From Candidatus Fermentibacterota bacterium (lineage in GTDB: Bacteria; Fermentibacterota; Fermentibacteria; Fermentibacterales; JCC-6): 64,000 nt of DNA. The notes beneath the pieces are model-generated. The model searched no databases. It saw only the letters and a program-made list of their open reading frames with translations, and was not told where the DNA came from. Of this stretch, positions 3,532 through 45,379 are shown piece by piece; within the stretch, counting starts at the first letter, position 1; each line of letters starts with the position of its first letter. Made by a program: the position numbers and the translations under genes. The stretch lies in the NCBI GenBank assembly GCA_030609965.1, contig JAUWSQ010000007.1, positions 1-64,000 of the forward strand, written 5' to 3'.

Positions 3532-3608
3532 TGGTCGGGGCGACTGGATTCGAACCAGCGACCACTTGAACCCCATTCAAGTGCGCTACCGGACTGCGCC
3601 ACGCCCCG
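3532..3608 (-). tRNA. tRNA-Pro (anticodon GGG)
   Basis: Complete cloverleaf with encoded CCA. The acceptor stem is CGGGGCG/CGCCCCG, the anticodon stem is CTTGA/TCAAG with loop ATGGGGT, giving GGG, and the T-arm has GGTTCGAATCC. Codons read: CCC and CCT. Confidence 0.95.
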
Positions 3609-19827: not shown

Positions 19828-19903
19828 TGGAGCCGGCGAACGGAATCGAACCGTTGACCTGCGCATTACGAATGCGCTGCTCTGCCAGCTGAGCTACGCC
19901 GGC
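19828..19903 (-). tRNA. tRNA-Thr (anticodon CGT)
   Basis: 76 nt with encoded CCA. Acceptor GCCGGCG/CGCCGGC, D-arm GCTCAGCTGGCAGAGC, anticodon stem GCGCA/TGCGC with loop TTCGTAA, giving CGT, and T-arm GGTTCGATTCC. Codon read: ACG. Confidence 0.96.
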
Positions 19904-43844: not shown

Positions 43845-44760
43845 AAACTGACCATACCGCCTGAGAAACCCGCAGTCAACATCAATGCCAGCAGATAGGC
43901 ACCGGGAACACGGTAAAGGGTACACACTTCCAACCGAAGCGCGATCGATGAGTTTAACCTACTTCTAACTCTGGAACATAGATGTGAAGAATGTGGTTCT
44001 GAATACCTGAGACCCTTCTCCTGCAAGTGTCGTGGTTTCTGCCCGTCCTGTTCGAAGCGGAAGTCATTAGATCTTGCAATCTTTCTTGAAGAAGAACTCT
44101 TCAGAGCGGTTGCTCACCGCCACTGGGTATGGAGTGTTCCGAAAATGCTCAGACTGCATTTCCTGCATCACAGGAAACTCTTACCAATACTCTGCAGATG
44201 CGCCTGGGACTCGCTCATGATATTTCTTCATGAAGCCCTTGATCGGAAAGATGTTTTCCCCGGCGGCATCCTCGTACCTCAGACCTTCGGGGGCATGGCC
44301 AACTGGAACCCTCACGTCCATGGTCTTGTAACGGATGTCTGCTGGGACAGAGAAGGTAATTTCTACCCCGTGCCTGAAATAGACACCGCAGATGTCCATG
44401 GTATAGAAAAGCTCTTTGCCGGTCTTGTTTTCAGGATGCTGCTCAAAGAGAACATGATCTCGAAGGAACTGGTGGAGAACATGAACTCCTGGAAGATCTG
44501 GGATGTTGATGCCCTGAAATGCCCGAAGTGCGGCGGTCGTATGAAAGTCATCTCCTTCATCGAACAGCCCTCGGTCATCAGGCGCATCCTTAAACACCTT
44601 GATCTCTGGGAGGATCCCAGACCTCCGCCGCAACCTCTGGAACTTGTCTGCGAACCTTGTGCAGACTACGTTCCCTGGAAAGATGATGTCCCTGAAATAG
44701 AGGTTGGGTAATAATTCTCGGATCCGGCTTCAGGAGGAATGTGCATCCTGATACGGTTTT
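43845..44760 (+). mobile_element. IS91-family transposase relic C
   Basis: The most complete N-terminus: a YRLRNPQST start in one frame, then, after a frame change, the zinc finger HRCEECGSEYLRPFSCKCRG and FCPSCSSKRKS, the HHRKLLPILCRCAW region, GGMANWNPHVHGLVTD with the metal-binding HxH, FRMLLKENMISKELVENM, an internal deletion to DVDALKCPKCGGRMKVISF, and the end PWKDDVPEIEVG stop (44711). ~45 bases past the stop match relic A. Compared with relic B, about 110 codons including the likely catalytic Tyr region are deleted. Confidence 0.88.
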
Positions 44761-44870: not shown

Positions 44871-45060
44871 GTTTCGGAGAAATTGCCGGAACGGTTTGAA
44901 ATCAAGATTCCTATTGTCTGTCTTACTTACTTCATCTCAGGCCGAATAGTGAAACCAGGAGTAGAAGATTACTTAGAAACATCACTGTCCCCTTTCACGC
45001 ACTGATTCATTACAGCCTGTTCTTTCATTCAAGATATTTAGGTTAATAACGAGGTATAGA
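44871..45060. other. Non-coding gap
   Basis: I see no gene, RNA or repeat that I can support in this AT-rich stretch between the RadC remnant and the terminator of the mini-ORF unit. Confidence 0.5.
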
Positions 45061-45064
45061 TTGA

Positions 45065-45091
45065 GGGCCGGAGCAGTGTATGCCCCGGCCC
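45065..45091 (-). terminator. Hairpin after the mini-ORF pair
   Basis: GGGCCGG/CCGGCCC arms (45065-45071 and 45085-45091) around a 13-nt loop, 22 bases past the stop of the second mini-ORF on its strand. Only a weak T-run follows. Confidence 0.5.
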
Positions 45092-45112
45092 CGTCCTTAT
45101 AGGGAAAAAAGG

Positions 45113-45154
45113 TTAAACCTTATTCTCCCCGCATTTGTATTTGTTTCCTACCAT
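45113..45154 (-). CDS. 13-codon mini-ORF 2
   Basis: ATG-TAA ORF encoding MVGNKYKCGENKV. The ribosome site AAAGGAGGTG has a 5-nt spacer (TGCAC) to the ATG, and that whole 15-nt unit is identical to the one before mini-ORF 1. The peptide is short, basic and has a single Cys. Too small for gene finders. A leader, signal or modified-peptide precursor is possible, or a functionless repeat. Confidence 0.5.
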   Translation of the reverse strand: MVGNKYKCGENKV

Positions 45155-45195
45155 GTGCACCTCCTTTGTTGGGGTTTCTGATATAGAGGGCTGAG

Positions 45196-45237
45196 CTAGG
45201 CCAGCACCTCCGTGCGTATACCTTTCCCTTTCCTCAT
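45196..45237 (-). CDS. 13-codon mini-ORF 1
   Basis: ATG-TAG ORF encoding MRKGKGIRTEVLA. The ribosome site AAAGGAGGTG and TGCAC spacer are the same as for mini-ORF 2, 83 bases downstream. The peptides differ in sequence but have the same length. A -10-like TATACT lies about 70 bases upstream on this strand, and a hairpin ends the unit at 45065-45091. Confidence 0.5.
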   Translation of the reverse strand: MRKGKGIRTEVLA

Positions 45238-45379
45238 GTGCACCTCCTTTCGGTTGGAGTTGGTAGAAGTAATAGACTTAAAAGTATATGGACTCGTCAA
45301 GTAAGATTCAGACCTGTACTGGTGATGAGGTAAAGTAATTGGGAATATCAAGGGGCAGCTGAAGCGGAAGAACCGTTAC

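Follow-up and report, generated by a model that had tools for sequence, protein, structure and literature searches.

A conserved, putatively free-standing structured RNA with two tandem 13-codon reading frames in Fermentibacterota: a candidate regulatory RNA read by ribosomes

Two short open reading frames (ORFs) on the minus strand of a stretch of 64,000 nucleotides (hereafter the window, i.e. the whole stretch of DNA that was analyzed) from a Candidatus Fermentibacterota bacterium are, judging from their conservation, parts of a free-standing structured RNA gene, which we read, with a probability of about 0.5, as a regulatory RNA that is read by ribosomes and in which the passage of the ribosome, not the peptide, would matter. 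Comparison of homologous sequences brought out a conserved fold with covariation, two in-frame units of SD, AUG, 12-13 codons and stop, stops placed in hairpin loops, drifting peptides and no conserved neighbour. Since the signals for start, frame and stop are preserved while the peptides change, ribosomes probably act on this RNA instead of producing a useful peptide. It is a more tentative idea, possible but short of probable, that a new class of trans-acting RNA is represented, the state of which would be set by ribosomes: with two tandem 13-codon units, the strongest SDs of the genome and stops in hairpin loops, it might serve as a translation sensor (e.g., of free ribosomes or initiation capacity), with neither a functional peptide nor a following gene.

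The two units had been described in an earlier note on this DNA as identical, 83 bases apart on the minus strand and each opening a 13-codon ORF, and exact copies of AAAGGAGGTGCACATG were indeed found at 45152-45167 and 45235-45250 with a spacing of 83 nt, each as the opening of such an ORF. Mini-ORF 1 (ATG...TAG, 45196-45237, minus strand) reads MRKGKGIRTEVLA and mini-ORF 2 (ATG...TAA, 45113-45154, minus strand) reads MVGNKYKCGENKV. The chance expectation for AAAGGAGGTGCACATG with up to two mismatches is 0.15 matches in the window, and a third copy was absent from the 2.62-Mb assembly of the same genome with one mismatch allowed. Both ORFs are preceded by AAAGGAGGTG, as SD1 at 45241-45250 and SD2 at 45158-45167 (both minus strand), which is the exact complement of CACCUCCUUU in the 16S tail and complementary over its full length to the 16S 3' tail GGATCACCTCCTTTC, as read in two same-genus genomes. 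As these two sites are the only ones in the assembly (2.6 Mb) with AAAGGAGGTG-N(1-6)-ATG and the complementarity to the 16S tail is complete, SD1 and SD2 are by this measure the strongest SDs of the assembly, which lacks about 20% of the genome; the SD signal of ordinary genes in the window is normal and weaker than at the mini-ORFs. The GGAGGTGC of SD1 is invariant across the homologs and that of SD2 in 11 of 11. A third GGAGGTGC lies within ORF1 (45201-45211, minus strand), is likewise invariant in 11 of 11, and can form either the predicted hairpin P4 described below or a small GCAC-GGAG-GUGC hairpin.

A BLAST search with 381 bases showed that about 250 nt (45056-45304) are 87-90% identical in seven genomes of the same genus; shorter matches were obtained in two further genomes (G017 and G008) and an outlier match in G040, a member of another family. 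Because this block is so well conserved in most same-genus copies although their gene contexts differ, the pair of units lies far beyond chance. The body of the RNA gene was delimited with covariance models R1 and R2 to 45065-45267 (minus strand), with a predicted transcript of about 205-215 nt; the first covariance model was built from 10 sequences, and the body in its own genome reached 245.6 bits. In a sample of 42 genomes of Fermentibacterota placed by whole-genome comparison, the closest named relatives being MAGs of Candidatus Aegiribacteria and Candidatus Sabulitectum, the body was detected in 12, namely in ten genomes of the same genus (own genome included), in G020 of another genus and in G040; 11 copies are full-length and one (G017) is without ORF1. 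Model R2 retrieved from other genomes of the phylum fragments of the terminal hairpin and no further homologs, and a scan of 343 genomes from outside the phylum with model R1 gave no homolog under strict filters, by which distant homologs may be missed. Among Rfam families none reached the gathering score, all matches being at chance level (E 3.8-9.9).

The RNA gene is present as a single copy per genome, and its distribution within the genus is patchy. It is missing from the near-complete genomes G001 and G004, and G018 (locus L050, contig C103, 1256-1345) has lost all of the RNA but the terminal hairpin (GGGCCGGAGC...), which is still followed by a flank similar to the one in G005; this relic is direct evidence of loss. 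In G017 (locus L048, contig C101, 1501-1690, minus strand) a deletion of about 57 nt took SD1 and all of ORF1 and left ORF2, hairpin P5 and the terminal hairpin intact, so that this natural deletion demonstrates that the two units are separable. Given such patchiness and repeated loss (G001, G004, G018, G017), the RNA is dispensable.

Both ends of the gene point to a standalone transcript, which would be transcribed from its own promoter. A promoter-like element (45271-45300, minus strand) consists of TTGACG (45295-45300), an 18-nt spacer and TCTATT (45271-45276); TTGAC and TCTATT at a distance of 17-18 nt were kept in 10 of the 11 full-length homologs, with G040 deviating at TCTATT, and the sequence farther upstream differs between homologs. 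The element was left unscored by a strict sigma-70 scan because the second hexamer has no A at position 2. Elements of the form TTGACR-N17-TAATWT were also observed upstream of two of the three tRNA genes of the window (19831-19903 and 3535-3608, minus strand). At the other end, hairpin P6 (GGGCCGGGGCA/TGCTCCGGCCC, 45065-45091, minus strand) is G+C-rich with a weak T tail and is a probable terminator; a terminator scan detected no T run of scan strength at this position. Across families the sequence of its stem, GGGCCGG, is invariant, and the hairpin has no proper T run; this degree of conservation exceeds what a plain terminator needs.

The surroundings of the gene bear on whether it could be a transcriptional or translational attenuator, i.e. 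the leader of a following gene, as the earlier note had also considered. The parts resemble those of known leaders, with an SD, a short ORF, a stop within a hairpin and then a terminator-like hairpin, and the same anatomy was described for the fthC uORF candidate uORFC-39-1 in Streptococcus, where SD and AUG lie between stems, the stop is inside the stem that follows, a terminator is present and the whole precedes a gene (PMC11109978). By anatomy this candidate is the nearest known system, and like it and like uORF leaders in general (ilvB motif) the RNA described here has the SD-AUG of a very short ORF between predicted stems, the stop in the next stem and a terminator-like last hairpin; SD, start and in-frame stop, with the stop in or near a stem, were found in 11 of 11 homologs, the stops lying in the loops of P4 and P5. 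Unlike in those leaders, however, two units stand in tandem, a closed core would join both RBSs and no main gene lies downstream. In G000, G012, G013 and G015 the RNA gene has the ruvB/queH region or a shared neighbour close by, in G003, G005, G008 and G017 it is situated downstream of a gene for a PAS-kinase/response-regulator, and in the remaining carriers it is found elsewhere. No downstream gene is common to the homologous loci, and the nearest one, unrelated between genomes, is on the opposite strand, as is often the case, or more than 200 nt away, which agrees with the observation in the earlier note that no gene follows closely. With differing downstream neighbours and no consistent main gene on the same strand, a leader was rejected, and we consider an attenuator very unlikely.

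The fold comprises six helices, for which 94.5% of the cells in the 11 full-length sequences are standard pairs and changes on both sides affect eight pairs in 13 cells, counts that lean towards the fold because the sequences had been aligned to match it. None of 500 shuffled controls reached the observed values for pairing and double changes, and versions with a slid structure paired at about 45-50%. Helix P1, which would close the core (45148-45266, minus strand), pairs CUACCA (45261-45266) with UGGUAG (45148-45153), so that its 3' strand overlaps the start codon of ORF2; A-U, G-C and U-A were all seen at columns 4-127. In P2 the GGAG of SD1 (45244-45247) pairs with CUCC (45256-45259); the helix is mostly invariant, and in G008 and G040 U10 is changed to C along with A20 to G and P2 is slid by one. 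P3 (minus strand) joins the palindromic GUGCAC at 45155-45160 with a second GUGCAC at 45238-45243 beside SD1 and is paired in 98.5% of cells, upheld by one-sided G-U changes in G040 and G020 with zero double changes; pairing of the two copies can occur and is compatible with these data, not proven by them. In predicted folds the GGAGG of SD1 is only about 0-7% unpaired in 10 of 11 homologs, i.e. predicted shut, and G020 adopted a different fold in the minimum-energy prediction.

Two hairpins hold the stops. P4 (GGAGGUGCUGG/CUCAGCCCUCU, 45185-45211, minus strand) carries the stop of ORF1 in its loop and has as its 5' arm the third GGAGGUGC; 94.5% of its cells are paired, columns 67-79 show U-A, A-U and C-G, and four of its ten pairs vary by breaking only. 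The GCAC-GGAG-GUGC hairpin is an alternative that competes with P4. As the 3' arm of P4 (CAGCCCUCU, in G020 GCGCCUCC) is complementary to all three copies of GGAGGUGC, an exchange between SD1, SD2 and P4 would be possible. P5 (GGGGAGAAUAAGG/CCUUUUUUCCC, 45102-45130, minus strand) carries the stop of ORF2 in its loop, in which TA(A/G) are the only constant letters, and three of its pairs are double-changed. Three double-changed pairs were found in P6 as well, where 97.5% of cells are paired. The hairpin that the earlier note had placed at the end of the unit was recovered as P5 together with the terminal P6, and beyond that note it emerged that both repeats lie within a covarying RNA fold, that the GUGCAC copies are able to pair and that the stops lie in hairpin loops.

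Each of the 11 full-length homologs carries both ORFs, of which 21 out of 22 have 13 codons and one has 12 (ORF1 of G008); all 22 stops are TAA or TAG, the start of ORF2 in G008 is TTG, and ORF2 of G017 still has 13 codons after the loss of ORF1. Hence short ORFs of the translated type, as proposed in the earlier note, were borne out: their signals are conserved while the peptides change, and relatives carry them with start and frame intact. In ORF1 the distance from SD to ATG is 5 to 7 nt, and that from ATG to stop is always a multiple of three. In three deep lineages the length between SD1 and P4 differs by -2, +2 and +2 nt and the ATG is displaced, with 36, 39 and 39 nt from ATG to stop; ORF2 of G040 has three extra nucleotides between SD and ATG. 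If changes fell at random at the divergence observed, a given ORF would be kept in each of these three lineages with a probability of 0.013-0.050, and the product of the six values, approximate and assuming independent lineages, is about 8e-10. That the ORFs were kept despite such low probabilities leads us to conclude that start, frame and stop of both are under selection, as far as can be judged from this comparison.

We rank as the main rival of a ribosome-read RNA a bicistronic micro-mRNA, in which the two 13-residue peptides would be the product and the fold would merely control their synthesis or stability. It would account for the ideal SDs and for the conserved start, frame, length and stop in both ORFs, as well as for the recurrence across lineages of the ORF1 end [RS]-[TV]-E-V-x-[AT] and of G/R-E in ORF2. 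However, the recurring residues are those encoded in the arms of the hairpin stems, residues 2-7 are unrelated between lineages, and ORF1 of G020 alters T-V and L-H while the RNA pairs are kept. The ratio pN/pS in eight same-genus genomes was 0.52 for ORF1 and 0.51 for ORF2, not below the values of column-permuted controls (P = 0.26 and 0.51, respectively; low power), so that in these eight genomes, and at this low power, no synonymous excess indicative of purifying selection on amino acids was detected. As the comparison covers 13 codons in eight close genomes, the peptide may still be under weak purifying selection. Neither a signal peptide nor a hydrophobic stretch was found and the Cys of ORF2 is not kept. 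On balance a micro-mRNA appears unlikely. A type I toxin mRNA, the product of which would be a membrane peptide, hydrophobic and about 20-60 aa long, is not supported, the peptides being charged and 13 aa long. The interpretation of the earlier note therefore stood in part: translated ORFs with conserved signals were upheld, but a precursor of a modified peptide, signal or toxin found no backing in the peptide sequence, which is without detectable constraint, and neither did an attenuation leader with no consistent downstream gene, nor the decayed repeat and insertion-sequence end treated below.

If the RNA is read by ribosomes, P1, P2 and P3 would close the core in the ribosome-free state, and SD1, and SD2 in part, would be held shut. 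An entering ribosome would read 13 codons and terminate within the P4 or P5 loop, by which that hairpin and the core would be opened. Whether the RNA is in the ribosome-free or the ribosome-occupied form might then decide on its action, either through its stability or through the access it has to a protein or to a target in trans. In translational attenuation of the ermC type, the ribosome on a short leader ORF frees a second SD. Likewise, a ribosome on the short ORF could free a second SD here, given the complementarity of the P4 3' arm to all three GGAGGUGC; unlike in the ermC type, the second ORF has just 13 codons and is followed by no resistance gene or other main gene. A different use of the same motifs would be a decoy for ribosomes or the anti-SD, in which an abundant RNA ties up 30S subunits with three GGAGGUGC sites and the ORFs hold or release the subunits. 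All three copies are invariant, two have 10-nt complementarity to the 16S tail, and a standalone transcript, as proposed above, would suit this role. Yet SD1 is predicted shut, the third copy lies inside P4, there is one gene copy per genome, and frame and stop, which a pure decoy does not need, are both kept, for which reason we regard a decoy as improbable, and as less likely than the reading of the RNA by ribosomes or a micro-mRNA.

Apart from leaders, several small RNAs with short ORFs invite comparison. SgrS/SgrT is an example of a dual-function sRNA. A further one is VcdRP with the 29-aa VcdP (PMC8672173). In common with both and with the sORF class of Breaker-type motif surveys, the RNA studied here appears to be standalone, has conserved start and stop (and frame, as in small proteins and sORFs) and has no tie to a downstream gene; it differs from them by two 13-codon ORFs, by SDs within structure, by the lack of coding-type peptide conservation and by having no identified target region. 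The downstream-peptide motif or Yfr6 of cyanobacteria (RF01704), in which a single ORF of 17-100 aa follows the structure, a 5' UTR element (PMC2864571), is similar in its transcript of about 250 nt, its conserved structure with a short ORF and its indels in multiples of three, whereas here the structure encloses both ORFs and Rfam gave no match. A limited literature search brought up no account of such a form in tandem and with no gene attached; conserved mini-ORFs that do not act through a peptide are known as leaders before genes. If the reading as a ribosome-read RNA is true, ribosome passage itself can serve as the input of a small RNA. The RNA is a compact, testable object of about 210 nt, with a natural mutant in which ORF1 is missing (G017), and is matched by no model in Rfam.

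With seven to ten GGA per 200 nt, including the GCAC-GGAG-GUGC hairpin, the RNA might also be thought to titrate CsrA through its GGA motifs. However, a search for CsrA (PF02599) in 32 genomes from the phylum (set G000-G041) gave no match, although the controls E. coli, B. subtilis and T. maritima were positive, so that an sRNA antagonist of Csr/Rsm was rejected and such titration is hardly credible.

As regards a mobile origin, a decayed repeat was dismissed, since the entire element is conserved with covariation, and so was an insertion-sequence end or mobile repeat, the element being single-copy with no transposase common to the copies. Phages, plasmids and viral contigs yielded no match to the RNA. 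A transposase fragment with weak similarity to Y2_Tnp (E 2.4e-4) is located at 44145-44711 on the plus strand of the window, about 350 nt past the 3' end of the RNA, a remnant that was seen next to the window copy only and next to none of the others.
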